Notes under the pieces: model-generated
Databases searched by the model: none
What the model was told of the DNA's origin: nothing
Seen by the model: only the letters and a program-made list of their open reading frames with translations
Program-made: the position numbers and the translations under genes
Shown here: one piece after another, positions 2,601 to 48,030 of the stretch
How the letters are laid out: each line of letters opens with the position of its first letter
Numbering within the stretch: the stretch's first letter is position 1
DNA from: Asanoa hainanensis
GTDB lineage: Bacteria > Actinomycetota > Actinomycetes > Mycobacteriales > Micromonosporaceae
Direction of reading: 5' to 3'
Length of the DNA: 64,000 nucleotides
Assembly (NCBI RefSeq): GCF_900188485.1
Contig: NZ_FZPH01000011.1
Coordinates: 1-64,000, forward strand

Positions 2601-4118
2601 TCAGCCGCCGGTGATCGCCTCGAGCAGGTCCTTGGCGCTCGGGCAGCGGTCGAACAGGGCCCCGACGTGCTTCTTCGTGCCCCGCTCGGGCTCCATCATG
2701 GGCACCCGGACCAGCGACTCGCGCCCGACGTCGAAGATCACCGAATCCCAGGACGCGGCGACCACCTCGGACGGATACTGCGCGAGGCACCGCCCACGGA
2801 AGTACGCGCGGGTGTCCTCGGGCGGCTCCACCATGGCCGTACGCGTCTCCTCGTCGGTCAGCAGCGTCTGCATCGCACCGCGGGCGACCAACCGGTGGTA
2901 GAGGCCCTTCTCCGGGCGCACGTCGCTGTACTGCAGGTCGATGAGCTGCAGCTTCGGCGACGCCCACTGCAGGTTCTCGCGGTCGCGGTAGCCCTCCAGC
3001 AGGCGCAGCTTGGCCACCCAGTCGAGCTCGTCCTGTGCGGACATCGGGTCGCGGCCGAGCTTGTCGAGGATGGCCTCCCAGCGCTCGAGCACCTGCACGG
3101 TGTCGGCGTCGGTGTCGGTGCCGTAGCGGTCGTCGCAGAACGCCTTGGCCCGCTCGAAGTAGGCCCACTGCAGGTCGAGCGCGGTCAGCCGGCGCCCGTC
3201 GCGCAGCCGCATGCGGTGCGTCAGCGTGGTGTCGTGGCTGACGGCCTTGAGCTCGGCCACCGGGTCGGCGATGCCGAGGTCGGGCGTGAGCACCTTCTCC
3301 TCGATCATCGTGAGCACCAGGGACGTGGTGCCGACCTTGAGGAAGGTGGAGATCTCCGACAGGTTGGCGTCACCGATGATCACGTGCAGTCGCCGGTATT
3401 TGTCGGCGTCGGAGTGCGGCTCGTCGCGGGTGTTGATGATCGGGCGCTTCAGCGTGGTCTCCAGCCCGACCTCGACCTCGAAGAAGTCGGCGCGCTGGGT
3501 GAGCTGGTAGCCCGGCTGCGACCCGTCCTGCCCGATGCCGACCCGGCCGGCGCCGGTGAACACCTGGCGGGTCACGAAGAACGGGGTCAGATAGGCGACG
3601 ATGTCGGCGAACGGGGTCTGCCGCCGCATGGAGTAGTTCTCGTGAGCGCCGTACGACGCGCCCTTGTTGTCGGTGTTGTGCTTGTAGAGGTGGATCGGGT
3701 GCGTGCCCGGGATGGTCGCGGCCCGGCGGGACGCCTCGGCCATCACCCGCTCGCCGGCCTTGTCCCAACGGACCAGGTCCATCGGGTTGGTGACCTCGGG
3801 CGTCGAGTATTCGGGGTGCGCGTGGTCGACGTACAACCGGGCGCCGTTGGTCAAAATGACGTTGGCCAGCCCGAGGTCCTCGTCGGCGAGCGCCTCCGCG
3901 GGGTCATAGGCGGCGCCGGAGTAGGTGAAGCCCCGCGCGTCCCGCAGGGGCGACTCCTCCTCGTAGTCCCAGCGCGCCCGCCCACCGCGGGTCAGCTCGG
4001 GTCGCGCCCCGTAGGCATTGACGACCTGCGAGGACGTCACCATCGGGTTGGCTCCGGCCTGGCCCGGCACCGAGATCCCGTATTCGACTTCGGTGCCCAT
4101 GATTCGCCGTACCGTCAC
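2601..4118 (-). CDS. dop: Pup deamidase/depupylase Dop
   Basis: Converts Pup-Gln to Pup-Glu and removes Pup from substrates, using ATP in a glutamine-synthetase-like (carboxylate-amine ligase) fold. The 505-aa product starts (V)[19 protein letters not shown], where GTEVEYG is the nucleotide/Mg-binding beta-strand of the Dop/PafA family. [16 protein letters not shown] and [11 protein letters not shown] are further signatures; the longer N-terminal segment with [10 protein letters not shown] is typical of Dop and not of PafA. GTG start at 4116-4118; an ATG six codons later (MGTEVEYG) is the alternative. First gene of the proteasome operon; pup follows. PafA is absent from the window. Confidence 0.95.
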
Positions 4119-4292
4119 GTCGCCACCTCGTTCCGCTGCCCCATGACGTCAAAGCGTAGTCCGACCAGACCCCCGCCCGCCCCCGGGCCGCGTGCGAATC
4201 TCCGGCACCGGTGCTCGACAGCCGCACCAAAGGACCCAGCACGCACCACGCGCCGGGGGTACGCAGACCCCCGGCGCGGCGCGAACGGCGGC

Positions 4293-5075
4293 CTAGAAGT
4301 AGGCGTACTGCTCCTCGGTGGCGTCCTCGACGTCCTTGGCCTCCGGGCGGTCGACCGTGGCGGGCTCACCCAGCGCGGTCAGCTGGATCTCCGACACCAT
4401 GTCGCCCATGGATGCGGTCTCGATGGTGTACGAGAGGTCGGTCAGCCGGCCTTCGGCGTCGACGGTGACCGAGTACGGCACCGCGGAGCCGTTGGTCGCC
4501 AGCCGGGACACGGGCTCGAGCTGGCCCTTGGCCTTGTCCGGCGCGGCCTCGACGGCCTTCTTGATGTCGGCGATGCCCGTGTAGGTCACCGAGCCCGCGG
4601 CCACGCCGTCGCGCTTCTCGGCGGTGACCACCCCGCCGAGCAGGCCGGAGTGCTGGGTGATGTCGAGCGAGTTGCGCATCGGGCTCGACGCGTTGAGCTT
4701 GGAGACCTGCAGCCGCAGGTAGGGCTTCTTGCCCGTCTGGCCGGACTTGATGAAGAGGTCGTCGCCGAGCTTCACCACCTCGACCGGGGTCTGCATCCCC
4801 TCCAGCGCGATCACCATGGCATCGGCGGCCAGGTCGACCCGCGCGGTCATGTCGAGGCTCTGCTGCTTGCCGACCGAGATGTGGGCGGTCATCGTGAAGG
4901 ACTTCGCGTCGAAGCTCCGCTGGAACGACTCCTTGACGACGGTGACGGCGTCACGGGCGTCGGCGGTGGGTGACGGCGAGGAGGAAGGCGGTGCGGCGGG
5001 CTCGGCGGCCGGCGTGGCACAGCCGGCGACAAGGAGGACGCCGGTCAGGGCGAGAACAGGAAGGGATCGAAACAC
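4293..5075 (-). CDS. LppX/LprAFG-like lipoprotein (paralogue 1)
   Basis: Predicted lipoprotein of 260 aa. The signal peptide ends in LVAGC (lipobox, Cys about residue 19), followed by a Pro/Ser linker and a single beta-rich domain from about residue 40. Repeated DLAADAMVIAL, KLGDDLFIKSG and LTDLSYTIE strands resemble the LppX/LprAFG family, which in mycobacteria carries lipids or glycolipids across the periplasm. Three neighbouring genes (5127, 5833, 6545) are recognisable relatives. GTG start at 5073-5075, with a TAATGT box 6 nt away (see 5082-5098), so probably leaderless. Function beyond lipid binding is inference from the fold family. Confidence 0.75.
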   Translation of the reverse strand: MFRSLPVLALTGVLLVAGCATPAAEPAAPPSSSPSPTADARDAVTVVKESFQRSFDAKSFTMTAHISVGKQQSLDMTARVDLAADAMVIALEGMQTPVEVVKLGDDLFIKSGQTGKKPYLRLQVSKLNASSPMRNSLDITQHSGLLGGVVTAEKRDGVAAGSVTYTGIADIKKAVEAAPDKAKGQLEPVSRLATNGSAVPYSVTVDAEGRLTDLSYTIETASMGDMVSEIQLTALGEPATVDRPEAKDVEDATEEQYAYF

Positions 5076-36235: not shown

Positions 36236-36290
36236 GGGCGAACTCTAGGACAGGTCAGCAACGGCCCGGTCGGACGGAGATCATCTTCGC

Positions 36291-36296
36291 TATCCT
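36291..36296 (+). promoter_or_regulatory. Probable leaderless -10 box of lipoprotein 36303
   Basis: TATCCT ends 6 nt before the ATG at 36303. The inverted paralogue at 45803 has TATCGT 7 nt before its start, in the similar context TCGCTATC, so the promoters were probably duplicated with the genes. Confidence 0.45.
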
Positions 36297-36302
36297 CCTG
36301 GC

Positions 36303-37025
36303 ATGCGCCGCGGTTTCCGTACCCTCGTCGTCCTCGCCCTGCTCGCGGCCGGCCTGTCGGCGTGCGGCGACGACGTCGCGCCGCTGCCGGCTCGCGTGAT
36401 CGTCATCCTTGATGACGAGGGCGCCGCCCAGCCCGCCGTCGTCGAGCAGCGCATCCGGACGATGCCCGCCGTGACCGACGTGGTTCTGACCACGAAGGAG
36501 CAGGAGTACGAGAACTTCCAGCGGAACTCGGCCGAGCTTCCCGAGGCGGCCAGAAACGTCAGGCCCGGCGACCTGCCGGCGTCGATGGAGGTCACCGTCA
36601 CGGACCTGGGACGCGCGGAGGCGGTGCAGTACGCGATCGGCACGTTCGACGGCGTCGATGACACCTCGCTCAGCACGGCCGACGGCGATATGTTGGCGCA
36701 CGAACGGGTGGGCATCCTCGTACGGCTGGAAAAGGACGCTTCGGCCGCGGAGCGGACCAGCGTCGAGGAGTTCATCCGCGCCCTGCCGGGCTACGACGCC
36801 CTCACGTTCGAGACGCCGGAACAGACGCGCGACCGGCTGCGGGAGCGCTGCCGCGACCACGCCGAACTGGCGGCCGCGTTCGACAAGGTCGAGCTGGCCG
36901 ACATCCCCGCGTCGTACCGGTTCCGGCTCTCGCGCGACCAGAAAGCGCCGCAACTGACGGAGCTGATAAACCTCGACGGCGTCACGCCGTTCTCGTTCGT
37001 ACCCGCCGAGCTCGTCAAGGACTAA
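36303..37025 (+). CDS. Lipoprotein with two FtsX-ectodomain-like repeats (copy A)
   Basis: A 240-aa lipoprotein: signal peptide with lipobox LSAC (Cys about residue 21). Two tandem halves each resemble the extracellular domain of the divisome protein FtsX. Half 1 (about 30-125): RVIVILDDEGA...VEQRIRTMPAVTDVVLTTKEQEYENF...LPASMEVTVTD. Half 2 (about 135-235): RVGILVRLEKDAS...VEEFIRALPGYDALTFETPEQ...IPASYRFRL. No FtsX membrane helices are present. If the fold is right, it could bind cell-wall hydrolases as FtsX does; this is inference. A close paralogue lies inverted at 45081-45803, with the last ~60 residues nearly identical. Confidence 0.75.
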   Translation: MRRGFRTLVVLALLAAGLSACGDDVAPLPARVIVILDDEGAAQPAVVEQRIRTMPAVTDVVLTTKEQEYENFQRNSAELPEAARNVRPGDLPASMEVTVTDLGRAEAVQYAIGTFDGVDDTSLSTADGDMLAHERVGILVRLEKDASAAERTSVEEFIRALPGYDALTFETPEQTRDRLRERCRDHAELAAAFDKVELADIPASYRFRLSRDQKAPQLTELINLDGVTPFSFVPAELVKD

Positions 37026-37064
37026 GCCGGTAGGTCGCCCTGGTGGGAGCGATCAAACCGTGGC

Positions 37065-38288
37065 ATGTCGATCTGGTGTGATGGGCGGGTGGGTGTCGAC
37101 GGTTACCGCCGATCGGGCGAGGCGGCCGAGGAGTTGGCCGCGGGCGCACTGGACTGGCTGATCGGGTCGGCGCGCGTCGAACCCGACCACACGCTCTACA
37201 GCGGCGGCGCCGGGGTCGTGCTCGCCCTGCTGGAAGGTCAACACCATTTCCAGGACGACCGGTACGGCGACGCGGCCCTGCGCGGTGCGGCCGGCTTGGC
37301 CGCGGCTGTCGACCACGAGGAGAACTGCTCGTTGTACTTCGGCCTCGCCGGCATGGCGGTCGCGCTGCGGGCGGCGCACCGGCTGCTCGGCGACGAGGCG
37401 GCGGGTCGCGCGGCGGACCGGGCGATGGACCTCGTGCGTACGCGATTCGACGGGCGGCGCTGGGGCGAGATGTTCGAGCTGCTCTTCGGCAACGCCGGCA
37501 TCGCGCTGGGCGCCCTGCACGTCGGCGACCTGGAGCTGGCCGTCCACGCGGTCGAGCCGTACCTCGACGAAGCCGACCCGACTCCCGGCGGCGTCAACTG
37601 GGCGGTTCGCCCCGGTCCCGCGCGGTCGCATCACATCGCGCACGGAACGCTGGGCATCGTGTACGCTCTGGCCGCCGTAGGTGCCGCCGCCGGGCGCGAC
37701 GACCTGATGGATCTGGCGCTGGCCGGCGCGGCCGACGTCGTGGCGAGGGACGAGGCGGGGCCCGACGGTTTTCTCGTCCCGCATTCCGACCCGCCGCACC
37801 GGCCCGAGCTGATCGAGCGCTACAGCTACGGCTGGTGCAACGGCCCCGCCGGTGACGCCCAGGTCTTCCGGTTGCTCGGTGCCTTGACCGGGGACGCTGC
37901 CTGGGCCGCGCTGGTCGACCGGTGCTGGCACACCGTGACCCACAGCGGCCTGCCCCGGCGCGTGCGGCCCGGCTTCTGGGACAACAACGGCCGTTGCTGC
38001 GGAACGGCCGGCGTGCTGGCGCTCGCGTGCGACCGGCACGAAGCGGGCGCGCACTTCGCCCAGGTGCTCGTCGGCGACCTCGGCGAGCGGGCCACGGTCG
38101 ACGCGGACGGGGTGCGCTGGTCCAACTACGAACACCGCGTGGCGCCGGGCACGCTCGCACCCGAGGTCGGGTGGGCGATGGGCAACGCGGGCATCGTCCG
38201 TGAGCTGTTGCGGTTCGCCCGCACCACGACCGGGGCGGACCCGGCGTACGCCGTCCAGTGGCCCGATCAGCCGGCCGCCGCCAGGTAG
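37065..38288 (+). CDS. Stand-alone LanC-like cyclase-fold protein
   Basis: A 407-aa alpha/alpha-barrel protein of the lanthionine-cyclase (LanC/LANCL) family: repeated GxxG motifs at YSGGAGVVLAL, LYFGLAGMAVAL, HGTLGIVYALAA, YGWCNGPAGD, CCGTAGVLAL and GWAMGNAGIVREL. Likely zinc ligands are Cys258, Cys311 and Cys312; the Cys-Cys-Gly pair replaces the Cys-His-Gly of free-standing LanC and matches LanM cyclase domains. No dehydratase, kinase-lyase or precursor peptide is visible within 10 kb, so a classical lanthipeptide cluster is unlikely. Start ATG 37065 (GTG 37089 is an alternative). Ends overlap the SnoaL gene by 22 bp. Confidence 0.85.
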   Translation: MSIWCDGRVGVDGYRRSGEAAEELAAGALDWLIGSARVEPDHTLYSGGAGVVLALLEGQHHFQDDRYGDAALRGAAGLAAAVDHEENCSLYFGLAGMAVALRAAHRLLGDEAAGRAADRAMDLVRTRFDGRRWGEMFELLFGNAGIALGALHVGDLELAVHAVEPYLDEADPTPGGVNWAVRPGPARSHHIAHGTLGIVYALAAVGAAAGRDDLMDLALAGAADVVARDEAGPDGFLVPHSDPPHRPELIERYSYGWCNGPAGDAQVFRLLGALTGDAAWAALVDRCWHTVTHSGLPRRVRPGFWDNNGRCCGTAGVLALACDRHEAGAHFAQVLVGDLGERATVDADGVRWSNYEHRVAPGTLAPEVGWAMGNAGIVRELLRFARTTTGADPAYAVQWPDQPAAAR

Positions 38289-38725
38289 AACGCGCCTGTC
38301 GTGCCCGCCAGCGGCGTGGCGTCGTGGTAGCGGATCTCGTACGTGCGCTCCGCGAACCGCCATCCGTCGGGCGTACGCGTGTAGCGGTCGTGGTAGATCG
38401 CGTAGTTCACGTGTGACGTGCCGTCGCGGAAGCGGCCGAGCTCGTGCATGTGCGCGCGGCCCGTCGCGGTGTCGCCGTCCACGACAACCGCGCCGGCGTG
38501 GGTGTGCTGGAGGAAGAACTCCCAGTGCCCCTGCAGCCGCTCGATGCCCTCGCGGAGGGCGGCCCGGCCGACCAGCTCGACGCCGGCGTCCGGGATGCGC
38601 ATCACACCGTCCGATGTGAACAGTGCGGCGAAGCGGTCGTAGTCGCGCATCAGCCCGGCGTCCGTGTATTCGGCCCGCAGCGCGTCGATCTCGACCCGGT
38701 CGGCGATAGCGTGGAAATCAGTCAT
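38267..38725 (-). CDS. SnoaL/NTF2-like protein
   Basis: A 152-aa protein of the SnoaL-like polyketide-cyclase/NTF2 fold: DRVEIDALRAEYTDAGLMRDYDRFAALFTSDGVMRIPDAGVELVGRAALREGIE, then QHTHAGAVVVDGDTATGRAHMHELGRF and YHDRYTRTPDGWRFAERTYEIRYHD, typical of enzymes on aromatic-ring substrates and of small-ligand proteins. Divergent from the SigJ-type sigma gene across a 60-bp dyad element, so it may be its target. Sigma factors of this class also carry a SnoaL-like C-terminal domain. Confidence 0.82.
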   Translation of the reverse strand: MTDFHAIADRVEIDALRAEYTDAGLMRDYDRFAALFTSDGVMRIPDAGVELVGRAALREGIERLQGHWEFFLQHTHAGAVVVDGDTATGRAHMHELGRFRDGTSHVNYAIYHDRYTRTPDGWRFAERTYEIRYHDATPLAGTTGAFYLAAAG

Positions 38726-38730
38726 GCCTG

Positions 38731-38790
38731 TCCGACGAGGTGGGCCGGCGGGATGTCAGGCCTGACGTTTCGCCCCGCTGCCTCGTCGGA
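38731..38790. promoter_or_regulatory. 60-bp dyad element between SnoaL gene and sigma gene
   Basis: Outer arms TCCGACGAGG (38731-38740) and CCTCGTCGGA (38781-38790) are perfect inverted repeats. The 12-bp palindrome GTCAGGCCTGAC (38755-38766) sits at exactly the same centre. It fills the gap between divergent genes. It could bind a regulator, or hold two symmetric promoters; TGTCAGG and CGTC recall ECF41-type promoter words, although their spacing (23 bp) differs from the 16 bp I recall for that class. Confidence 0.6.
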
Positions 38791-38814
38791 CCCGGTAGAG
38801 GAAGGGAGACCACG

Positions 38815-39699
38815 ATGGCGGACCTCAGCGAGATCATGAGTGAGCGGCGGCAACTGATCAATGTCGCGTACCGGCTGCTGGGCTCCCTGGCCGACGCCGA
38901 GGACGCGGTGCAGGAGACCTATACCCGCTGGTACGCCCTGTCCCGCGCGCAACAGGAGGCAGTCGAGTCACCCGGGGCCTGGCTGACCACGGTGGCGAGC
39001 CGGATCTGCCTCGACCAGCTCCGGTCGGCCCGGGTGCGGCGGGAGCGCTACGTCGGCGAGTGGATCCCGGAGCCGCTGCCCGAGGACGGCCGGATGAGCA
39101 GCGCCGACCCGGCCGACCGGATCACCCTCGACGAGTCCGTCAGCATGGCCTTCCTCGTCGTGCTCGACTCGATGACGCCGGCCGAGCGGGTCGCGTTCGT
39201 GCTCCACGACGTCTTCCGCTATCCGTTCGGCGAGGTGGCCGAGATCGTCGGGCGTACCCCCGCCGCCTGTCGGCAGTTGGCCTCCTCGGCCCGCAAGCGG
39301 GTCGCCGGGTCGCGCGCCGAGATCAACGGAACCCCGGACACCCGGCGCGCCGGACTCGTGCGTGACTTCAAGCAAGCCTGGCAGGCCCAGGACATCGCGG
39401 CGCTCGTCGGGCTGCTCGACCCCGACGCCACGGCGACCGGCGACGGTGGCGGGATCGTCAACGCCGCGGCGCAGCCGATCGTGGGTGGCGCGGAGGTGGC
39501 GCGCTACATGGTCGGCCTGGCCGCGCGGGCGACGACCGAGTTCACCCTGGTCGAGAGCACGGTCAACGGCCAGCCCGGCCTGATGGGGGTGCAGGACGGC
39601 CGGACCGTCATGGTGATGGCGTTCGACGTCGCCGACGACCGGATCACCCGCATCTGGGCGGTGCTCAACCCCGAGAAGCTGCGCCCGTGGACGGCGTGA
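38815..39699 (+). CDS. ECF41/SigJ-type sigma factor with SnoaL-like C-terminal domain
   Basis: A 294-aa extracytoplasmic-function sigma factor: region 2 LINVAYRLLGSLADAEDAVQETYTRWYAL...SPGAWLTTVASRICLDQLRSARVRRERYVGEWIPEPLP, region 4 LDSMTPAERVAFVLHDVFRYPFGEVAEIVGRTPAACRQLASSARKRV, then a ~110-residue SnoaL-like domain (RDFKQAWQAQDIAALVGLLDPDATATGDGGGIVNAAAQPIVGG). YVGEWIPEPLP is a hallmark linker of the SigJ group. No anti-sigma gene is adjacent, as expected, since the C-terminal domain regulates activity. ATG 38815 has GGAAGGGAG upstream. Tail overlaps the LysR gene by 35 bp. Confidence 0.93.
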   Translation: MADLSEIMSERRQLINVAYRLLGSLADAEDAVQETYTRWYALSRAQQEAVESPGAWLTTVASRICLDQLRSARVRRERYVGEWIPEPLPEDGRMSSADPADRITLDESVSMAFLVVLDSMTPAERVAFVLHDVFRYPFGEVAEIVGRTPAACRQLASSARKRVAGSRAEINGTPDTRRAGLVRDFKQAWQAQDIAALVGLLDPDATATGDGGGIVNAAAQPIVGGAEVARYMVGLAARATTEFTLVESTVNGQPGLMGVQDGRTVMVMAFDVADDRITRIWAVLNPEKLRPWTA

Positions 39700-40582
39700 G
39701 GGTCGACCGGGCGATCCGCAGGAAGTGGCGGGCGACCGGGCCCAGCGGCCGGCCGGCGACGGTCGCGATCACGATGCGGTAGCTCGGCGGCTGGCCGCCC
39801 AGCTCGAGGAAGCGCAGGTCGTCGGCCTGCTCGATGATCGAGCGTGGCATGAACGCCAGGCCGAGGCCGAGCCGGACCAGGTCGAGGATCGTCGCCAGGT
39901 CGTTCATCTGCACGGTGGTCCGCCGGGTGAGGCCGGCGGCGACGTAGGCCCGGTCGACGGCACTGCGGACACCCCAGCCGGGCGGGAACTCGATGAACGC
40001 CTCGTCGGCGAGGTCGGCCAGGTCGACAGATTCCCGGCCGGAAAAGGCCAGTCGGTGGTCGGCGGGGCAGGCCAGCACCACCTCGTCGGTGGCCAGCACC
40101 TGCTGGTCGAAGCCCGGCAGCGGGCCCTGGGTCAGCACGACGGCCAGGTCGAGCGCGCCGTCGCGGAGGCTGTCCAGGTGGTCGAGCGTCCCGCGCGGGC
40201 CCGGTGCGGTCAGCCAGATCTCCACACCGGGCAGGTCGGCGCGGAACGTGGCCAGCGCCTCGCGTACGCCGCTGGGGGTCAGGCCGTAGAGAATGCCCAG
40301 CCGCAGCCGGCCGCGCAGGCCCTGGCCGACCTGGGTGACCGTCTCCCGCGCGGCCTCGACCGCGGCCAGGATGCCCAGCGCCTCGGGCAGCAGGGCGCGG
40401 CCGGCCTCGGTGAGCTCGACGTGCTGGGTGGTGCGGTCCAGCAGGGTCGCCCCGAGCTCGCGCTCCAGCGCCCGGATCGCGGTCGAGACGCCGGACTGGG
40501 CGGTGCGCAGCCGCTCGGCCGCGCGGGTGAAGCCGCCCTCCTCGGCGACGGCGACGAAGACCTCGAGCTTGCGGATGTCCAC
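39665..40582 (-). CDS. LysR-family regulator
   Basis: A 305-aa LTTR: N-terminal winged HTH DIRKLEVFVAVAEEGGFTRAAERLRTAQSGVSTAIRALERELGATLLDR, then a periplasmic-binding-type co-inducer domain (LRLGILYGLTPSGVREALATFRADLPGVEIWL; LDLAVVLTQGPLPGFDQQVL; LVRLGLGLAFMPRSIIEQADDLRFLEL). GTG start at 40580-40582. Divergent from an MFS exporter; the gap contains an LTTR-type box (40611-40627). Its stop falls inside the sigma gene (35-bp tail-to-tail overlap). Confidence 0.93.
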   Translation of the reverse strand: MDIRKLEVFVAVAEEGGFTRAAERLRTAQSGVSTAIRALERELGATLLDRTTQHVELTEAGRALLPEALGILAAVEAARETVTQVGQGLRGRLRLGILYGLTPSGVREALATFRADLPGVEIWLTAPGPRGTLDHLDSLRDGALDLAVVLTQGPLPGFDQQVLATDEVVLACPADHRLAFSGRESVDLADLADEAFIEFPPGWGVRSAVDRAYVAAGLTRRTTVQMNDLATILDLVRLGLGLAFMPRSIIEQADDLRFLELGGQPPSYRIVIATVAGRPLGPVARHFLRIARSTLTPSTGAASRG

Positions 40583-40610
40583 CCGACCATCATTCCAAGA
40601 TCCGATAGAG

Positions 40611-40627
40611 ATATCCAAACTTGATAT
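40611..40627. promoter_or_regulatory. LysR-type operator
   Basis: ATATC-CAAACTT-GATAT: perfect 5-bp arms around 7 bp, AT-rich in a GC-rich background, in the 54-bp gap between the LysR and MFS genes. Fits the T-N11-A type LTTR box. Confidence 0.7.
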
Positions 40628-40636
40628 TGGGCCCCG

Positions 40637-41857
40637 ATGGATCTTCGGATCAGACTCGGTTTCATGCCCAGCACCACCCATCGCGCCGGCTTCGCGCTCG
40701 TCGCCGGCGCCTACGCCGCGACCATGGCAGCCGGTTCCGTGCCGACGCCGCTCTACGTCCTCTACCAGCGCCGGGACCATTTCGGCACGACCATGATCAG
40801 CGTTGTTTTCGCTGTGTACGTCATCGGCGTGATCAGTGGCCTGCTGTTCGCGGGCGCCCACGCCGAGCGGCTGCGCCGGCGCACGATCCTCGGCGCGGCG
40901 CTCGCCGTGCAACTCGTCGCCTGCGCCGTCTTCCTGGCCTCCCCGGCACTGCCCGCCATCCTGGCCGGCCGGGTGCTCTCCGGGCTGTCCGTCGGCCTGC
41001 TCTCGGGTCCCGCGACCGCCTTCCTGATCGAGCTGCGCCGCCGGGCCGCGCCGCAGGGCGACCAGCGGCACGCCGAGGTCGTCGCCACCGCGGCCAACCT
41101 CGGCGGCCTCGCGCTCGGCCCGCTGCTGTCCGGCGTCCTCGCCGAATGGGCTCCGGCGCCGCTGCACCTGCCGTACGTGGCGATCGGTCTTGTGCTCGCG
41201 CTGTCGGCGGTGCTGCTCGCGCTGGTGCCCGAGACCGCGACGCCGACCGGCGGGCCGGCCGCCCGCCCGCTGGCCGTCGCACCGCACCGACGCGAGCAGT
41301 TCCTCGCCTCCTGCCTCGGCGGCCTCGTCGCGTTCGCGATGTTCGGCCTGTTCGCCGCGCTCAGCCCGTCGTTCGTGGCGGGCACCCTGGGCCACCGCTC
41401 GCACGCCCTGGCCGGACTCGTCGCCTTCGTCGGGCTCGGGGCGGCCGCCGTCGCGCAGATCGGGTTGCGCCGGCTCCCGCCCCGCCAGGCGATGACCGCG
41501 GTCCTCGTCGGCATGCCGGTCGGGCTCGCCCTCGTCGTCGGCGGTGTGTGGGCCGGCTCGCTCGCCCTGTTCGTCCTCGGCGGCGCGCTCACCGGCGCCG
41601 GCGCCGGGCTGCTCTTCCGGGCGTGCCTGACCACCGTGGTGCAGCTCAGCCCGCCCGAGCGCCGGGCCGGCACGCTCGCGTCGCTGTTCGTGACCAGCTA
41701 CGCCGGCCTGACCGTCCCCGTGATCGGGCTCGGCGCCGCCAGCCAGCTCACCGGCACCCGCGTCGCCATGGCCGGCTTCGCCGTGATCGCCGTCGCCGCG
41801 CTGGTCGCGGTCGGCACCGTCCGCCTCCGTCCCGAACCCGTTATGGAGCTGAGTTGA
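40637..41857 (+). CDS. MFS transporter, probably exporter
   Basis: A 406-aa protein with 12 predicted helices and MFS motif A-like GLLFAGAHAERLRRRTILGAALAVQ in the 2-3 loop. GRVLSGLSVGLLSGPATAFLIELRRRAA is the motif found in actinobacterial drug- and metabolite-exporters. Start ATG 40637; an internal ATG at 40664 (MPSTTHRAGF) is an alternative. Coupled to the amidohydrolase gene by the 4-bp overlap TTGA, so transport and catalysis probably concern one compound, controlled by the divergent LysR. Confidence 0.88.
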   Translation: MDLRIRLGFMPSTTHRAGFALVAGAYAATMAAGSVPTPLYVLYQRRDHFGTTMISVVFAVYVIGVISGLLFAGAHAERLRRRTILGAALAVQLVACAVFLASPALPAILAGRVLSGLSVGLLSGPATAFLIELRRRAAPQGDQRHAEVVATAANLGGLALGPLLSGVLAEWAPAPLHLPYVAIGLVLALSAVLLALVPETATPTGGPAARPLAVAPHRREQFLASCLGGLVAFAMFGLFAALSPSFVAGTLGHRSHALAGLVAFVGLGAAAVAQIGLRRLPPRQAMTAVLVGMPVGLALVVGGVWAGSLALFVLGGALTGAGAGLLFRACLTTVVQLSPPERRAGTLASLFVTSYAGLTVPVIGLGAASQLTGTRVAMAGFAVIAVAALVAVGTVRLRPEPVMELS

Positions 41858-43233
41858 CCACCACCACCATCATCCGCGACGCGCACGTCGTCACCATGGA
41901 CGACGAGCTCGGCGACCTGCGCCACGCGGACCTCCGCGTTGACGGCGGCGTCATCACCGCGATCGGCCCCGACCTGGAGGTGCCGCCCGGCGCGACGGTC
42001 ATCGACGCCGCCGGCAAGGTGGCGCTGCCCGGCCTCGTCGACTCGCACCGCCACGTCTGGCAGGGCGCCATCGGCGGGGCGGGCGGGAAGGTCTCGCTCG
42101 GCGGCTACTTCGGCGTCGTGCTGGCCGGGCTGCTCGACAAGTACTCGCCCGAGGATGTTTATGCGGGCGTGCTGTGGGGCGCGCTGAAGGCACTGCACTC
42201 CGGCGTCACCACGGTCGCCGACTGGTCGCACATCGTCACGACACCCTCGCACGCTGACGAGAATGTGCGCGCACTGCGGGACTCGGGCATCCGGGCGGTG
42301 TTCCTCTATGGACCGCCGGTCGGCCAGGGCGTGATGCGCTGGTTCCACGAGAGCACGGAGCGACACCCGTCCGACGTACGCCGAATGCGTGCTGAGCTCG
42401 CCGACGACAGCGCGCGGGTCACCATGGGCCTGGCCCTGCGCGGCCCGGAGTTCGCCACCCCTGCGACGACGGAGTACGACTTCCGGCTGGCCCGCGAGCT
42501 CGACGTGCCGATCAGCATCCACTCGGGCATCCCCGGCTACCTGCTCAAGTACCGCACCATCGACACGCTCTCCGAGTTGGGCCAGCTCGGCCCCGACGTG
42601 CACCACGCCCACGGCGCCCAGTTCAGCGACGACGACCTGACCCGGATCGCGGCGACCGGCGGCGCGGTGACCCCGTGCCCGACGATCGACATGACGATGG
42701 CGATGGGCACCTTCCCGCTCGTCGGGCGGGCCCTCGAACACGGCCTGGTCCCGTCGTTCGGCACCGACACCGTGGCCGGCTCGGGCGCGGACCTGTTCAG
42801 CGAGATGCGCCTCGCCCTGGCCGCGGAGCGGGCCCGGGCCAACGCGGCCGCCCTGGCCCGCGACGAGCCACCGGCCACCGTGGACCTGGACCAGCGCGAC
42901 GTGCTGCGCTTCGCGACGGCCGGCGGAGCGGCGGCGTGGGGCATGCAGGACCGGATCGGCACGCTGCGGCCGGGCAAGCGCGCCGACATCATCCTGGTCG
43001 ACGTGACCCAGCCGCACCTGGCGCCGCTGAACGACCCGGTGACCACGATCGTGCTCAACGCGGGCGCGTCTGATGTGGACACCGTGCTGGTGGACGGCGT
43101 GGTGGTCAAGCGTTCCGGGCGGCTGGTCGGCCCGCTGCTGGACCAGGCCCGCTCGCTGATCGAGGCGTCGCGGAGCCGGCTGTTCGCGCGCGCCGACCTG
43201 TCGGGCGTGCTCGGCCCGGACTGGGCGGCCTGA
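41854..43233 (+). CDS. Amidohydrolase (cytosine deaminase/TrzN-like)
   Basis: A 459-aa metal-dependent hydrolase of the amidohydrolase superfamily: N-terminal composite beta-domain (TIIRDAHVVTMDD...DLRVDGGVITAIGPD), metal motif LPGLVDSHRHVWQGAIGG (HxH), SIHSGIPG and HHAHGAQF (His ligands), and PSFGTDTVAGSGADLF (Asp). C-terminal TLRPGKRADIILVD is the usual return strand. TTG start at 41854 is set by the TTGA overlap with the MFS stop and by GGAG (41845-41848) 5 nt before it. Probably hydrolyses or deaminates a ring compound linked to the MFS transporter; actual substrate unknown. Confidence 0.88.
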   Translation: MTTTTIIRDAHVVTMDDELGDLRHADLRVDGGVITAIGPDLEVPPGATVIDAAGKVALPGLVDSHRHVWQGAIGGAGGKVSLGGYFGVVLAGLLDKYSPEDVYAGVLWGALKALHSGVTTVADWSHIVTTPSHADENVRALRDSGIRAVFLYGPPVGQGVMRWFHESTERHPSDVRRMRAELADDSARVTMGLALRGPEFATPATTEYDFRLARELDVPISIHSGIPGYLLKYRTIDTLSELGQLGPDVHHAHGAQFSDDDLTRIAATGGAVTPCPTIDMTMAMGTFPLVGRALEHGLVPSFGTDTVAGSGADLFSEMRLALAAERARANAAALARDEPPATVDLDQRDVLRFATAGGAAAWGMQDRIGTLRPGKRADIILVDVTQPHLAPLNDPVTTIVLNAGASDVDTVLVDGVVVKRSGRLVGPLLDQARSLIEASRSRLFARADLSGVLGPDWAA

Positions 43234-43240
43234 GAAAGCT

Positions 43241-43309
43241 GCCGCCTGCGCGACCAGGCCAGTGCCGGACCCCCGCCGGCGAGCGCCAAGGTCTGGTCGC
43301 GCAGGTGGC
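43241..43309. terminator. Long nested inverted repeat after the amidohydrolase gene
   Basis: CCTGCGCGACCAG (43245-43257) and CTGGTCGCGCAGG (43293-43305) are perfect 13-bp inverted arms; with one G.U pair the stem extends to 17 bp (43241/43309). The 35-nt loop contains a second hairpin GCCGG (43264-43268)/CCGGC (43276-43280). It starts 8 bp after the stop codon, so it probably ends the MFS-amidohydrolase transcript. Confidence 0.65.
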
Positions 43310-43321
43310 TGGTAAGCAAGG

Positions 43322-43537
43322 ATGTGGACCATGGAGAAGCACCGGGCGGTACGCGGGCTGTTGCTCCTCGCGGCAGCGGCGCTGGCGATCGCGTTCGTGG
43401 CGATCGCCGGTTATCCGAGACTGGTCAGCGCGGGCATCACCGGCGGTCTCACGGCGGGCGTGCGCGCGATCGGCGTCGGCGCCCTCCTGCTCGCGCCGAT
43501 TCTGGCGGTCAGCGCGTTGGTGCGCCGGCTTCTCTAG
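43322..43537 (+). CDS. Small two-helix membrane protein
   Basis: A 71-aa protein: AVRGLLLLAAAALAIAFVAIAGYPRLV forms one helix and GVRAIGVGALLLAPILAVSALVRRLL another, with a positively charged C-terminus. ATG 43322 or 43331 (MEKHRAV). It lies between the terminator and the broken phosphatase gene. No family recognised; it may be real because both segments keep good hydrophobicity. Confidence 0.45.
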   Translation: MWTMEKHRAVRGLLLLAAAALAIAFVAIAGYPRLVSAGITGGLTAGVRAIGVGALLLAPILAVSALVRRLL

Positions 43538-43558
43538 CGCCTCTCGTACCCTCGCCAA

Positions 43559-44099
43559 ATGTCCGTGGAGATCGTTTTCGAGACGCACGCCCTGACGGAA
43601 GACAACGAGAACGGTGTGGCGACGGGATGGTTGCCCGGCCGGGTTGTCCGCGCGGGGGCGCGACAACGCGGCCGCAATGGGCCGGCGGCGGCGTGCCGAC
43701 GGCATCGCCGCGGTCTTCTGCTCGGACCTGCGCCGGTCGGTCGAGACCGCCGAGATCGCCTTCGCCACCGGCGACATCCCGGTCCTCCTCGACTGGCGGC
43801 TGCGCGAGTGCGACTTCGGCGCCCTCAACGGCTCGCCCGGGGCGCAGCTGAGCGCCGGCCGGACACAGCACGTCGACCGGCCGTACCCGGGCGGCGAGAG
43901 CCACCGGCAGGCCGTGCGCCGCGTCGCCGGCCTGCTCGCCGACCTGCCGTCGCGGTGGGACGGCCGGCGCGTGATGCTGATCGGCCACCTCGCCACGTAC
44001 CGGGCGCTGGAGCACGTCGTCCACAGCCGGCCGGTCGAGGACGTCGTGGCGGCCGAGTTCACCTGGTGCCCGGAAGGCTGGGAGTACCGGCTCGGCTAA
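43559..44099 (+). pseudogene. Histidine phosphatase family gene with a +1 frameshift
   Basis: Joining two frames gives a good histidine-phosphatase-type sequence: MSVEIVFETHALTEDNENGVATGWLPGR in the first, LSARGRDNAAAMGRRRRADGIAAVFCSDLRRSVETAEIAFATG ... RVMLIGHLATYRALEHVVHS ... FTWCPEGWEYRLG in the other. The break is at the GGG run 43641-43643: one G fewer would join them. The first part has FETHALT, with the phosphohistidine His present although the usual RHG is replaced by THA; the second catalytic His is in LIGHLATY. It is either a recent pseudogene, an error, or a recoded gene. A TACCCT box lies 6 nt before the ATG. Confidence 0.7.
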
Positions 44100-44140
44100 T
44101 CGCGTTGCGAGCCCTGTCGCGCCGGGCTTAGCTCGGCGTC

Positions 44141-45091
44141 ATGTCCGCTCCTTCACCGGTCTTCGTCGCGGGTACGGGTCGTTCGGGCACCTCGCAGCTC
44201 GCCGACATCATCGGCCAGCATCCGCTGATCCATCGGATACCGATCGAGACCCGGTTCATCCCGGACCCGGGCGGCCTGCGGGACCTGGCGGACGCCCTGA
44301 CGTGCCGGTACGACCCGATCGCCGCCGGCGACGCCCTGCGCCGGCTGAGCGACCTGCTGACGGTGCGGATGGTCGGCCGACGTGACCGCGACCGCGGCTA
44401 CACCCTGCCCGACGTCGTCGGCGAACGGCACTACTGGGACGCGGTGGCTGCGCTGTGGCCGGCGCTCGTCGCGACCACCTTCGACGAGGCGCTGCCGGAG
44501 TTCGGGCGCGCCGGGCCGTTCGAGCCGGCGAGCCTCCGGCGGGTGGTGCCGCGGTACTTCCGCGACCGGCGGGACCTGATCCAGATCCTGCGGCGCGCGG
44601 TGGACACGATGTTCGGCGGGGCCGCGGCCGACGCGGGCAAGCCGACCTGGTGCGAGAAGACCCCGTTCAACCTGCTGTGCATGGACTTTCTCTGGGAGCT
44701 CGTCCCGGAGGCCACCATCGTCCACATCAAACGTGACCCGGTCGCGGTGGTCGCCTCACACGTCGAGCAGGTGTGGGCGCCGCCCACGGTCGACGGCGCA
44801 CTCGCCTGGCTCGAACCGGTCTACGACCGCTGGCTCGCCTGGAAGGCCACGGCCGACCTGGACAACCGGCGGTACGTGGAGGTGAAGGCGGAAGACCTCG
44901 CGGCGGACTGGCCCGCGCAACGCCGCGCCCTGTTCGCGCGACTCGGCGTCGACGACTTCGCGACGCCGTCGACGTTCGAGCCGCGGAAGGTGCGAAACCG
45001 CGACGACCAGTTCGACGCGGCAACCCGCGAGTACGTCGAACGAGCGCTCGGCGACGTCATCCCGGCCATGGGGTACGCCGTCAGTCCTTGA
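44141..45091 (+). CDS. Sulfotransferase-family protein
   Basis: A 316-aa PAPS-dependent sulfotransferase-like protein: N-terminal PVFVAGTGRSGTSQLADIIGQHPLIHRIPIETRF contains the 5'-phosphosulfate loop GTGRSGTS; ATIVHIKRDPVAVVASHVEQVW contains the 3'-phosphate-binding R-x-P-x8-S region; the C-terminal YVEVKAEDLAADWPAQRRALFARLG matches the family. Typical for enzymes that sulfate lipids or glycans. Tail-to-tail overlap of 11 bp with the lipoprotein copy B. Acceptor unknown. Confidence 0.85.
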   Translation: MSAPSPVFVAGTGRSGTSQLADIIGQHPLIHRIPIETRFIPDPGGLRDLADALTCRYDPIAAGDALRRLSDLLTVRMVGRRDRDRGYTLPDVVGERHYWDAVAALWPALVATTFDEALPEFGRAGPFEPASLRRVVPRYFRDRRDLIQILRRAVDTMFGGAAADAGKPTWCEKTPFNLLCMDFLWELVPEATIVHIKRDPVAVVASHVEQVWAPPTVDGALAWLEPVYDRWLAWKATADLDNRRYVEVKAEDLAADWPAQRRALFARLGVDDFATPSTFEPRKVRNRDDQFDAATREYVERALGDVIPAMGYAVSP

Positions 45092-45803
45092 CGAGCTCGG
45101 CGGGCACGAAGGAGAACGGCGTCACGCCGTCGAGGTTCATCAGATCCTTCATCTGCGGCACCTTCTGGCCGAGCTCGAGCCGGAACCGGAACGACGCGGG
45201 AATGTCGGCCAGCTCGACCTTGTCGAACGCGGCGGCCAGCTCGGCGTGGTCGCGACAGCGCTCCCGCAGCCGGTCCCGCGTCTGCTCCGGTGTCTCGTAC
45301 GAGAGCGCGTCATAGCCCGGCAGGGAGCGGATGAACTCCTCGACCTTGGCTCGCTGGGCGGTCGTGGGGTTCTCCTCCATCGGCACGATGATGCCCACCC
45401 GTTCCTGCGCCGCCACGTCGCCGTCGGCCGCGGTGAGCATCGAGCGCTCGACACCGTCAAACGTGCCGACCGCGAACGCGACCGCCTCCGCGTGCCACAG
45501 GTCGGTGACGGTGGCCTCCAAGGAAGCCGGCATATTCTCCGGCGCGGCGCCGGCGAGGACCTCGGGGAGGTCAGCGAACGTCCGCTGGTGGTCGGCGTAC
45601 GCCTGCTCCTTCGAGGTCGCGACCACGCCCGTCACGCCGGGCATCGCCCGGATGCGCTGCTCTACGCCGGCGAAGTCGGTGGCGACCGCGTCATCGAGAA
45701 ACACGACGACCCGGGCCGGCAGCGGCTCGACGTCGTCGCCGCACCCGGACAGGCCGGTCGCGAGCAAGGCAAGAACGACGAGGGTACGAACGGCGCGGCG
45801 CAT
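45081..45803 (-). CDS. Lipoprotein with two FtsX-ectodomain-like repeats (copy B)
   Basis: A 240-aa paralogue of the 36303 gene in opposite orientation: lipobox LSGC, half 1 RVVVFLDDAVATDFAGVEQRIRAMPGVTGVVATSKEQAYADHQRTF...MPASLEATVTD, half 2 RVGIIVPMEENPTT...VEEFIRSLPGYDALSYETPEQTRDRLRERCRDHAELAAAFDKVELADIPASFRFRL...NLDGVTPFSFVPAELVKD. Its C-terminal half is nearly identical to copy A at DNA and protein level; the N-terminal half differs more. A TATCGT box 7 nt before the ATG (45811-45816) suggests leaderless transcription. Same inferred role as copy A. Confidence 0.75.
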   Translation of the reverse strand: MRRAVRTLVVLALLATGLSGCGDDVEPLPARVVVFLDDAVATDFAGVEQRIRAMPGVTGVVATSKEQAYADHQRTFADLPEVLAGAAPENMPASLEATVTDLWHAEAVAFAVGTFDGVERSMLTAADGDVAAQERVGIIVPMEENPTTAQRAKVEEFIRSLPGYDALSYETPEQTRDRLRERCRDHAELAAAFDKVELADIPASFRFRLELGQKVPQMKDLMNLDGVTPFSFVPAELVKD

Positions 45804-45810
45804 GCGCCGG

Positions 45811-45816
45811 ACGATA
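45811..45816 (-). promoter_or_regulatory. Probable leaderless -10 box of lipoprotein copy B
   Basis: TATCGT on the minus strand, 7 nt before the ATG at 45801-45803, in the context GTCGCTATCGTCC, like TTCGCTATCCTCC before copy A. Confidence 0.4.
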
Positions 45817-45978
45817 GCGACTCCAGGCCAGTATCGGTGACCCGCACAGCGGCGGTCGAGGCCGCCAAGGGTGGTGGGTTCAGCGCCTTCGGCTCCGCGA
45901 ATCGTCCACTCGTGCGCTACCGCGATATCCGCGTGGCGGGTCTACTGGTTTGACTCGGCTCCGGGCGAGGAGGTCGAC

Positions 45979-46449
45979 ATGAGTGTCTACGAGATTCGAC
46001 ACGGTGATCATCTGGTCGTCAAGCGGAGATTTGCCGGCGTGGTGCCCTACACGCATCACGGAATTTACGTCGGCTCGCGCAAGGTCATCCATTTCACCGG
46101 GCGTACGGCCGCGACCGCGACTGTCCGCAAGACAACGATCGAACAGTTCATCGCCGACAGCGCGTTGGCGGTGCGGGTTTACGACGGGAAGACGCTGAAG
46201 CGCAAAGAGACCTGTCGGCGCGCGGAGGAGATCCTGCGCACCAGCAAGGCGTACAGCTATGTGAACAACAACTGCGAGCATCTCGCCACCTTGTGCAAGG
46301 CGGGAGAGTCGAAAAGCCACCAGGTCGACAGCCGAGTGGACTTCGTGGTCTACGGCAGGCAGTCAGAGATCGCCCCGCGCTTTCCGGACTCGATCTTCAA
46401 TCCCGGCTTCACGGACGTCAAGGTCCTTCGCTATCGGTTGCGAAACTGA
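45979..46449 (+). CDS. LRAT/NlpC-P60-fold protein
   Basis: A 156-aa protein of the lecithin:retinol acyltransferase-like branch of the NlpC/P60 papain-type fold: GDHLVVKRRFAGVVPYTHHGIYVGSRKVIHFTG contains the catalytic-type His in HHGIYVG; SKAYSYVNNNCEHLATLC contains the N-C-E-H nucleophile motif, with Cys as expected. These enzymes act on lipids or peptidoglycan as acyltransferases/phospholipases. ATG 45979 with GAGGAGG upstream. Codon use and GC are lower than in neighbours, so it is probably acquired. Tail overlaps the 46418 gene by 32 bp. Confidence 0.82.
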   Translation: MSVYEIRHGDHLVVKRRFAGVVPYTHHGIYVGSRKVIHFTGRTAATATVRKTTIEQFIADSALAVRVYDGKTLKRKETCRRAEEILRTSKAYSYVNNNCEHLATLCKAGESKSHQVDSRVDFVVYGRQSEIAPRFPDSIFNPGFTDVKVLRYRLRN

Positions 46450-46906
46450 CCTGCTCCGGGCCGCGGGCGTCGCCAACCGCGGCAGCCTGGTCCATGAACC
46501 TCACGAAGCCGGGCGGGTAACTGGTCAAGGTCAGGACCGCCGACCAGAGCCGCGCGAACGCCGGTCGACTCATCGACGCACGCGTGCCGGACTCCCAAAC
46601 GTTCGCGAGCTTGCGGCTCACCAGCCGATTGTCGATCAGATACCACTGCTCGAAGCAAAGATCGAAATACTCCCAGGCAGCCCGGACCGACGTCTCCCTC
46701 GCCGCTTCGTCAAGGTCCTCGAGTCGAAAGTGGGGGTCCAGAAAAACGGCGGGCATGCGGCGCAGCAGCTCGTTGTAGCGCCGGTTGTGCTCGGCGAAGT
46801 TCTGGATGAACAACTGCCGTCGCACCGCCCGAAGTTGAGCGAGAATCGCGACGATCGACACTGTCAGCGCCAGGGCGGCGATGTAGTCCGTCGGCGCCTT
46901 GAACAT
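46418..46906 (-). CDS. Membrane-anchored protein of unknown function
   Basis: A 162-aa protein: one N-terminal helix (YIAALALTVSIVAILAQL), then a cytoplasmic helical domain beginning RAVRRQLFIQNFAEHNRRYNELLRRMPAVFL, similar in layout to uncharacterised anchored effectors or DUF4760-like proteins. It contains WEYFDLCFEQWYLIDNRLVSRKLANVWESG, a recurrent motif of such families. ATG 46904-46906 with AAGGGG upstream. It overlaps the LRAT gene end by 32 bp. No function is assigned. Confidence 0.6.
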   Translation of the reverse strand: MFKAPTDYIAALALTVSIVAILAQLRAVRRQLFIQNFAEHNRRYNELLRRMPAVFLDPHFRLEDLDEAARETSVRAAWEYFDLCFEQWYLIDNRLVSRKLANVWESGTRASMSRPAFARLWSAVLTLTSYPPGFVRFMDQAAAVGDARGPEQVSFATDSEGP

Positions 46907-46981
46907 TTCGCGCCCCTTCGCACGTGAGCGACGCCGAAGCGTCGCGCTGGCCGCGAGCCGAGCCTCGGCAGGCACGGCGTC

Positions 46982-47424
46982 CTATGTAACCTGCGGCATT
47001 GCCCGCAATCGGTCAAGGGCCGATGTCCAGCCCGCCTCGTACAACTCCCGGGACACCTTGAACCACCTGGTATAGGTTTGATCTGGTTCCACGTCTCCCT
47101 CTCCGTCGCCCTCGGCGACGAAGATGTGGCCATCCATCTGCCAGACCAGGATGTCCCATCCCTGGTCCATGTCGAGATACGGCTTTTCGATCGTGCCGCA
47201 TGGGATGTCCGCAACGGTCCAGGCACGAATCTTGGCCACAGGTTCGCTCCACCAAGCCCAACCAATGCGGGTAGCCGGCGACGAGACAACGTAGGCCAGG
47301 TTGAGTGACTCCACCCCCCCCGGTCCGTGCCCCACACGGCGAGTTCGACCGTGAAATCCTGGGCCTCAGGAAAATCGTCCGGGTTGAAGCCGGTCAGGCC
47401 GGAGATTCCGTCAAAGATATTCAT
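46982..47424 (-). pseudogene. Small gene with a frameshift at an 8-C run
   Basis: The first part reads MNIFDGISGLTGFNPDDFPEAQDFTVELAVWGTDRGG; after the run of eight C at 47314-47321 (G on the coding strand) the sense continues in another frame: VESLNLAYVVSSPATRIGWAWWSEPVAKIRAWTVADIPCGTIEKPYLDMDQGWDILVWQMDGHIFVAEG...ALDRLRAMPQVT. Together about 145 residues. The coding strand start ATG is 47422-47424, overlapping the 47421-47804 stop by 4 bp (ATGA). It may be a broken gene, a sequencing slip, or slippage-controlled (phase variation). Protein family unrecognised; aromatic-rich, soluble. Confidence 0.6.
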
Positions 47425-47804
47425 CGACCTGACCTTCTCACAGCAGCGGCCGGTGACCTACTTCCTCCCAGTGCGCTGAGCACCAGGGTTGCTTCCGCAC
47501 CGTTCGACTGCCGCCAGAGGATCACCGGCGTGGTCGCGGGCATTTCGATCCTGTCGATCTCGTCCCACCCGACCGTCGTAGTACGCAAGAACTCGCGCAC
47601 CACGACTCCGCGCGGCTTGGCGAACACCCCGAGCATCGGCGCGCGGAGAGCGCCAGCCCAGAAGCAGGCGGAGAACAAGAGGATCCCGACAACAGCCAGC
47701 GAGTTCTTCTGCGTCAGGGCCGATATGGTCAAGGTGGCCGCCAACACCGTCATACAGAGCACCAGAACGATGTTCCAGAACCATGATCGCCAAGCCGACT
47801 TCAT
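47421..47804 (-). CDS. Small membrane protein with PH-like domain
   Basis: A 127-aa protein with two helices (WFWNIVLVLCMTVLAATLTISAL and LAVVGILLFSACFWAGALRAPML) and a short domain GVFAKPRGVVVREFLRTTTVGWDEIDRIEMPATTPVILWRQSNGAEATLVLSALGG, the pattern of bacterial PH-like membrane proteins. ATG at the 47804 side; 4-bp overlap with the next gene suggests a two-gene operon. The final SRSPAAAVRRSGR may be a slipped end. Function unknown. Confidence 0.6.
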   Translation of the reverse strand: MKSAWRSWFWNIVLVLCMTVLAATLTISALTQKNSLAVVGILLFSACFWAGALRAPMLGVFAKPRGVVVREFLRTTTVGWDEIDRIEMPATTPVILWRQSNGAEATLVLSALGGSRSPAAAVRRSGR

Positions 47805-47937
47805 CGAACCTCCGCGTCCGGCTTTCTATCCCACGGACAGGCGGGTGGGAGGTCGCAGCAACGATCCTAGGGCGCTCCCACCCGCCCACGACCACGCGAG
47901 GTCAGCCCGGTCCCTTGGTCTGCGGGGCAGCGGGGCA

Positions 47938-48030
47938 GCGGTCGTGCGAGCGCGCTTCCCTGATCGGTACCGGGTTGCGGTCGATCTTGGTGCCGGATGC
48001 GGCTTGCGACAGGGCGAAATCTTCGCAGTA
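47938..48030 (+). pseudogene. Tyrosine-recombinase (integrase) remnant
   Basis: In one frame the strand reads AVVRARFPDRYRVAVDLGAGCGLRQGEIFAVAP. VAVDLGAGCGLRQGE is the very conserved segment of phage-type integrases that carries the first catalytic Arg. Nothing before or after it fits an integrase, so only about 30 codons survive. It lies between the 45.9-47.8 kb accessory genes and metH, the kind of scar an integrated element leaves. No attachment site is recognisable. Confidence 0.65.

Follow-up and report, generated by a model that had tools for sequence, protein, structure and literature searches.

Lipoproteins of two tandem FtsX-type ectodomains in Asanoa hainanensis, and a wider group of free-standing FtsX ectodomains

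The gene pair and its domains

Two inverted genes for small lipoproteins, here named P0001 and P0002, were analysed in a stretch of 64,000 nucleotides from the soil actinobacterium Asanoa hainanensis (contig NZ_FZPH01000011.1 of assembly GCF_900188485.1, positions 1 to 64,000 of the forward strand, hereafter the window). Each encodes 240 residues, and the open reading frames and their strands agree with a preliminary description of this DNA. The lipobox at Cys21, read by eye, is LSAC in P0001 and LSGC in P0002; both products are predicted to be lipidated and to lie on the outer face, and in the mature proteins Cys183 is the sole cysteine besides the one that would carry the lipid. The features are collected in Table 1.

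FtsX_ECD (PF18075), the FtsX extracellular domain, or ectodomain, is the sole Pfam match above the curated cut-off in either protein, with two stretches per protein (P0001, E 8.1e-23, 81.3 bits; P0002, E 4.8e-20, 72.4 bits). In the genome search all four halves separately exceeded the 23.5-bit cut-off, with the scores given in Table 1. In profile-profile comparison with eight Micromonosporaceae FtsX ectodomains, the N-terminal halves matched at 99.7% (E 2.7e-26) and the C-terminal halves at 98.2% (E 3.3e-14), through alignments spanning 90-94 domain columns, and the two half profiles matched each other at 99.1%. When the N-half profile was compared with the PDB, the best six solved structures were all FtsX (6hfx, E 2e-5; 4n8n, E 1.6e-4). 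The C-half profile alone found nothing significant in the PDB (Hsp104 came best at E 0.54, FtsX at E 1.3), and a four-row profile of the whole protein reached FtsX just at E 1.1. What is said here of the fold comes from profile comparisons and not from structures; read in this way, each protein is two tandem FtsX ectodomains, the same domain as in M. tuberculosis FtsX and S. pneumoniae ECL1, and the FtsX-like nature of each half, already put forward in the preliminary description, holds for all four.

The permease part of FtsX, with its four transmembrane helices, was not found, there being no second Pfam domain above cut-off, and the NCBIfam FtsX models score the two proteins at 30-40 bits against cut-offs of 225-255. 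The earlier suggestion that the domain has been freed from the permease and doubled is thus borne out. Unlike FtsX, P0001 and P0002 have neither a transmembrane permease nor FtsE; they carry two copies of the domain per chain and, to judge from the lipobox, a lipid anchor.

Table 1. Coordinates of the two lipoprotein genes and their features within the window
Feature	Position	Strand	Basis
P0001, lipoprotein with two FtsX ectodomains, 240 residues	36303..37025	+	Open reading frame list, Pfam, genome profile search
P0001 signal sequence and lipobox, residues 1-21 (LSAC, Cys21)	36303..36365	+	By eye; Cys21 in 22/22 family members
P0001 N-terminal FtsX_ECD	36396..36662	+	51.0 bits, cut-off 23.5
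P0001 C-terminal FtsX_ECD	36711..36968	+	34.0 bits, cut-off 23.5
P0001 Cys183 codon; the only cysteine in the C-domain X-lobe, at the FtsX Phe110 position	36849..36851	+	Cys in 21/22 family members
P0002, 240-residue paralogue of P0001, 70% identical, inverted	45081..45803	-	Open reading frame list, Pfam, alignment
P0002 N-terminal FtsX_ECD	45447..45710	-	47.4 bits
P0002 C-terminal FtsX_ECD	45123..45395	-	28.8 bits
P0002 Cys183 codon	45255..45257	-	Sequence, family alignment

The same genome encodes an FtsX (C28:409199) whose ectodomain is homologous to those of the lipoproteins (98.2-99.7% in the comparison of family and FtsX profiles). Its gene follows ftsE and is followed by a gene for an M23-domain protein (L094, 7029-8303), whereas no ABC ATPase and no M23-type hydrolase was recognised among the 10 scanned neighbours of P0001 and P0002. 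The preliminary description had looked to RipC-type endopeptidases as partners; these are not the obvious ones here, the M23-domain protein being encoded directly after ftsX. The EnvC model gives that protein 62.3 bits against a cut-off of 270, and its N-terminal region appears by eye to be a coiled coil.

Beyond what had been described before, the design proved common to a family. A search of 354 Micromonosporaceae genomes with an eight-row alignment, in which scoring was limited to the 7 top candidates in each genome, yielded 22 matches of near full length (E <= 2.2e-75). These come from 20 genomes in six genera, and one match (G636) runs into a contig end. There were in addition one divergent full-length match (G466) and one match to the C-half only (G503). 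The family alignment comprises 22 full-length proteins, with G466 included and G636 excluded, and its members are without permease and without FtsE. Cys21, Arg52, Pro80, Glu106, Gly137, Arg178, Ser204, Arg206 and Pro234 are invariant in 22/22, as are Val118, Glu170 and Gly226, and Cys183 is present in all members except one. The ratio of nonsynonymous to synonymous substitution rates (dN/dS) is 0.49-0.67 over the full length of the three full-length pairs, and it is below 1 in each ectodomain of all three. Between P0001 and P0002 the N-domains are 57% identical (dN/dS 0.70) and the C-domains 78% (dN/dS 0.43).

These data bear on the idea that the lipoproteins are a drifting remnant family without wall function, lone and fast-evolving genes that are loosely kept or often lost. 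The patchy presence of near-full-length matches (20/354 genomes), the full-length dN/dS values and the existence of one copy with the C-half only (L174) and of another that is short (L123) would suit it; nevertheless, the first nine invariant residues listed above, the near-invariant Cys183 and a dN/dS below 1 in both ectodomains of all three pairs speak against it, and it is the least probable of the explanations weighed in this work.

The binding lobe in the two halves

The FtsX ectodomain has two lobes, a Porter part and an X-lobe. The X-lobe grips RipC, PcsB and EnvC, and in M. tuberculosis FtsX the contact with RipC is made by four clustered phenylalanines, Phe61, Phe110, Phe113 and Phe122, which pack on it (PMC10694151, PMC6355983, PMC11627006). 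In 32 Micromonosporaceae FtsX, with contact columns assigned from one alignment to a hidden Markov model (HMM), the Phe61 and Phe110 positions are aromatic in 32/32 and the Phe122 position is large and hydrophobic in 32/32; the Phe113 position is not kept, being large and hydrophobic in 2/32.

The two halves of the lipoproteins differ at the three kept positions. In the N-domains the residues are large and hydrophobic in 21/22, 16/19 and 17/22 at the Phe61, Phe110 and Phe122 positions, with aromatics in 13, 7 and 0. The C-domains have Arg at the Phe61 position in 17/21 and Cys at the Phe110 position in 21/22, and aromatics at these two positions occur in 0/21 and 0/22. By mean BLOSUM62 score to FtsX, the N-domain X-lobe stands at 1.99 and its scaffold at 0.96; the corresponding values for the C-domain are 0.88 and 0.72. 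Within the window pair, the N-domains keep the X-lobe pattern of FtsX and the (L/M)PAS motif, and that of P0002 has F, F and M at the contact positions; the C-domains of both proteins have R or P, C and I, and thus Arg or Pro and Cys where FtsX is aromatic.

The lack of FtsX contact residues in the C-half had not been foreseen. On these alignments at most one half, the N-domain, would look FtsX-like at the binding lobe, and two hydrolase-binding halves are not supported. A symmetric double clamp, in which both halves would sit on one hydrolase like the FtsX pair, was considered and rejected on the counts of C-domain aromatics. In a tree of the domains, the C-domains form one clade (0.979) and the N-domains no single clade; the 92 alignment columns are too few for dating the duplication.

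Free-standing ectodomains, sigma genes and host FtsX

The lipoproteins belong to a larger set of FtsX ectodomains outside FtsX. By eye, more than one FtsX_ECD match was counted in 43 of 101 sampled Micromonosporaceae genomes (E 0.01) and in 24 of 296 genomes of a class-wide sample (E 0.001); the additional match can also come from the other half of a double protein or from another FtsX. Among the 24 is the window's genome, and 21 of the other 23 fall in two families, f18 (11 of its 27 genomes) and f15 (10 of its 12). Four designs were seen in the fetched loci, namely sigma-linked membrane proteins, membrane proteins without sigma, single-ectodomain lipoproteins and double-ectodomain proteins, the membrane and lipoprotein classes being assigned by eye. 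In f18 (L097-L114) there are double-ectodomain proteins for which a membrane span is predicted. Several are encoded by tandem gene pairs (L106, L112) or by overlapping open reading frames (L099), and many have, by eye, a pair of cysteines towards the start of the domain, close to the site of the disulfide in M. tuberculosis FtsX. Genes for single-ectodomain membrane proteins may also be paired, in tandem (L118, 3888-5040; L077, 3511-4474) or convergently (L067, 3789-4996).

In loci drawn from the best-scoring matches listed, which do not amount to a census, 24 of 51 single-ectodomain genes of Micromonosporaceae (52 were counted, one being FtsX itself, L094) and 6 of 13 in f18 abut a same-strand gene for a SigE-like extracytoplasmic function (ECF) sigma factor, against 12 of 529 among the remaining genes of those loci. 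For double-ectodomain genes the figures are 0/10 in Micromonosporaceae, with two of the 10 being repeat fetches (L095, L096), 1/8 in f18 and 0/4 in f15. Sigma genes were detected by an HMM grown from the L059 sigma factor (E < 1e-12), and they are called SigE-like because just one of two scanned sigma factors passes the NCBIfam SigE-family cut-off of 141.55 bits (L059, 154.2; L103, 123.9).

The window's genome has one sigma-linked ectodomain gene (C28:609856) and a second single-ectodomain gene without sigma, each for a protein with one predicted span. At L059 (C28:605800-614100; locus 3488-4602) the gene for a SigE-family ECF sigma factor overlaps by 4 bases that of a membrane protein with a predicted single span, the outer part of which is an FtsX ectodomain. 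The sigma-linked proteins recall anti-sigma membrane proteins in being encoded in sigma operons and in having a short, basic N-terminus and a single predicted span of the membrane. They differ from anti-sigma factors in that Pfam found no anti-sigma domain in the five scanned, and sensing would fall to an FtsX ectodomain; the NCBIfam model CU044_5270 matches four of the five weakly (E 0.0013-0.072, far below cut-off). The double-ectodomain lipoproteins lie outside sigma operons, again unlike anti-sigma factors.

If free ectodomains share a partner with FtsX, their contact lobe should follow the FtsX of the host, and the scaffold need not. Host FtsX was taken from 49 genomes; the comparison leaves out the free ectodomains of G026, G046, G051, G056, G070, G080, G082 and G466, for which no FtsX was at hand, as well as the whole of f18 and f15. 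For 24 sigma-linked ectodomains from 12 genera, the X-lobe scored 0.547 higher with its own than with other FtsX, a value reached at genus level by none of 20,000 permutations. The scaffold difference was 0.093 (460/20,000), and the gap between X-lobe and scaffold was again matched by 0/20,000. At the Phe110 position 21/24 have the residue found in the FtsX of their genus (8.4 expected, p = 0.0008, and 0.0004 on repeat), and the Phe61 position does not discriminate (17/24, 17.0 expected). These two columns come from the literature; columns 39, 56 and 60 were chosen from an earlier run on overlapping data. The idea itself arose in a first run with 18 domains and 16 FtsX, and later runs, which enlarged or recut overlapping data, are not independent of it. 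Gene conversion was rejected as the source of the tracking, the third-base identity at shared residues not being raised (114/232 with own FtsX, 4431/8641 with other genera).

The lipoprotein N-domains were treated in the same way. Over five genera the family X-lobe follows the genus's FtsX, with 2 of 120 permutations as high, and the scaffold gives 18/120. With L051 and L083 added (double proteins of 351 and 293 residues, from a sixth genus), the X-lobe reaches 2/720, the scaffold 71/720 and their difference 20/720; this set of 22 N-domains consists of 20 family members plus these two, and so differs from the 22-member family alignment. With own FtsX, third-base identity is somewhat raised in each of the two lobes (91/151 versus 2825/5227; 115/215 versus 3733/8064), so that shared composition or exchange is possible for the N-domains. 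C-domain X-lobes show no tracking at genus level (p = 0.43; 30/120 permutations for the family only), and membrane ectodomains without sigma gave none that was significant (p = 0.10).

It is tentatively proposed that P0001 and P0002 may be membrane-anchored docking proteins for an FtsX-type coiled-coil partner, either a hydrolase of peptidoglycan or an activator of one. This partner would be gripped by the N-domain X-lobe and might be kept at the membrane away from FtsEX or presented elsewhere. Having no permease and no FtsE, the proteins cannot relay an ATPase signal. The C-domain, its FtsX contact surface given up, probably has a second function, such as pairing of the lipoproteins through Cys183 or binding of another protein, and the two copies, most diverged in the N-domain, may prefer different partners. 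The role proposed here would resemble that of EnvC, NlpD and further wall-hydrolase regulators, which lie in the envelope and, without being catalytic, recruit hydrolases or keep them in place; their architecture is unrelated to that of P0001 and P0002. That free ectodomains can plausibly keep the partner of FtsX follows from the sigma-linked relatives, which mirror FtsX at the contact residue. The preliminary description had suggested a decoy or adaptor for wall hydrolases. In its favour, the N-domain X-lobe is FtsX-like and tracks host FtsX, yet the contact residue and the C-domains, devoid of contact aromatics, do not conform to it; a decoy role is possible but less well supported than the preliminary description supposed, and the stronger evidence for binding of an FtsX partner lies with the sigma-linked relatives.

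Several results weigh against an FtsX-type partner for the lipoproteins. In the family alone the X-lobe is not clearly above the scaffold (difference, 13/120 permutations), and the Phe110 position of the N-domain mirrors host FtsX in 3/20, with 4.8 expected. Within the window, the N-domain of P0001 has I, S and L at the three contact positions, that is, Ile and Ser where FtsX is aromatic. The C-domain X-lobe, for its part, reaches p = 0.0495 at the sequence level, single-ectodomain lipoproteins are without clear tracking (p = 0.11), and the p values as a whole are approximate, the genera being few and related. The X-lobe is the better-kept part among FtsX too, as their mutual BLOSUM62 scores indicate (3.12 versus 2.53 for the scaffold). 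Finally, no neighbour gene is shared by the family: in 23 loci clustered by neighbour, using a crude GC-based gene caller and with one locus (L167) ending before the full ectodomain frame, the commonest neighbour families occur in 5/23, all of one genus.

Free ectodomains could instead be general extracytoplasmic sensing or ligand modules, with the lipoproteins binding a non-hydrolase ligand or modulating a sigma-linked ectodomain membrane protein elsewhere in the genome. The proportion of single-ectodomain genes that abut a sigma gene, far above that of the control genes, is in keeping with such a role, as are the sigma-linked gene of the window's genome and the departure of the lipoprotein contact residues from FtsX. 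Two double-ectodomain genes also lie near sigma genes, at L052 (a lipoprotein gene; the sigma gene, itself adjacent to a single-ectodomain gene, is about 2.3 kb away) and at L051 (531 bp). However, none of the 10 Micromonosporaceae double-ectodomain genes abuts a sigma gene, and the mirroring of FtsX by the sigma-linked ectodomains points back to the FtsX partner as ligand; this explanation is regarded as rather unlikely.

The lipoproteins might also bind FtsX or FtsEX itself, for example by replacing one ectodomain of the FtsX pair, and thereby modulate division from the outer side. Two FtsX ectodomains act jointly on one partner (PMC10694151), and a tandem ectodomain has the shape of that pair; the tracking of host FtsX by the N-domain X-lobe would likewise agree. 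Yet the scaffold, a possible contact surface between ectodomains, tracks without clarity (18/120 permutations, as above) and the C-domain has lost the FtsX-like lobe, which leaves this alternative improbable.

Returning to docking of an FtsX-type partner, a broader and slightly more speculative proposal takes in the whole group. Micromonosporaceae and a second family of the class might possess a toolkit of free ectodomains, in which sigma-wired, membrane-spanning copies would bind the hydrolase partner of FtsX and relay the state of that partner to transcription, and lipid-anchored doubles, P0001 and P0002 among them, would compete for or redirect related partners at the membrane, so that wall cleavage at division would be both sensed and buffered. 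The control of wall hydrolases by FtsEX is a central problem of division. Natural ectodomains free of the permease would uncouple the binding of a partner from signalling by the ATPase and could serve as ready-made competitors, and sigma-linked copies that follow the contact residue of host FtsX would let cells sense hydrolase engagement at the divisome.

Such a larger group of free-standing FtsX domains, some of them paired with sigma factors, is apparently undescribed. No description of free-standing FtsX ectodomains was seen in open-licence literature on FtsX, PF18075 and SigE-family sigma factors, among the matches listed and as far as titles and the starts of abstracts go, where absence is not proof. 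The earlier remark that no lipoprotein of this design had been described is likewise consistent with the literature on FtsX and its Pfam accession.

Genomic setting and history of the pair

The inverted pair consists of matching arms (84% and 80%) with 27 unmatched bases between the arms; the arms begin 2 bases 5' of the start codon and end in the stop codon, and the 300-base flanks of P0001 and P0002 have no match above shuffles. In A. ishikariensis there is a single copy, which shares 75% identity with P0001 and 67% with P0002, and a 43% relative lies elsewhere in its genome. The single copy adjoins the sulfotransferase gene that also neighbours P0002; farther out on that side is a large gene, by eye a methionine synthase. 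P0001 is, by position, the extra copy.

Just 5' of the P0001 start, at 36278-36300, 22 of 23 bases match the region upstream of the A. ishikariensis copy, and the upstream region of P0002 has no match above shuffles to either. Immediately upstream of P0002, at 46001-48000, G+C drops to 0.633, the other 2-kb steps lying at 0.669-0.765. A small gene at 46982-47335 is shared with A. ishikariensis; the interval from it to P0002 contains an LRAT-domain gene (45871-46449) and another open reading frame, in place of which A. ishikariensis has two different genes. With other genes there in A. ishikariensis and a low G+C, the upstream region of P0002 may have been replaced.

A mobile or phage origin found no support: P0001 had no match (E 0.01) among 50,697 records of phages and 72,556 of plasmids. 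A LanC-like gene lies immediately 3' of P0001 (37065-38288), with no lanthipeptide synthetase among the 10 scanned neighbours of the two genes. No sigma gene abuts P0001 or P0002, which have other neighbours. Between them, at 38740-39699, is a gene for an ECF sigma factor with a SnoaL-like tail, which we take to be of the SigJ/ECF41 type and which is also found near the A. ishikariensis copy. A TATNNT hexamer stands 6-8 bases 5' of the ATG in both window genes (P0001, TATCCT, 36291-36296, + strand; P0002, TATCGT, 45811-45816, - strand), and the A. ishikariensis copy has TATCCT at the same 6-8-base spacing. Judged by eye and without statistics, these hexamers fit a leaderless transcript.

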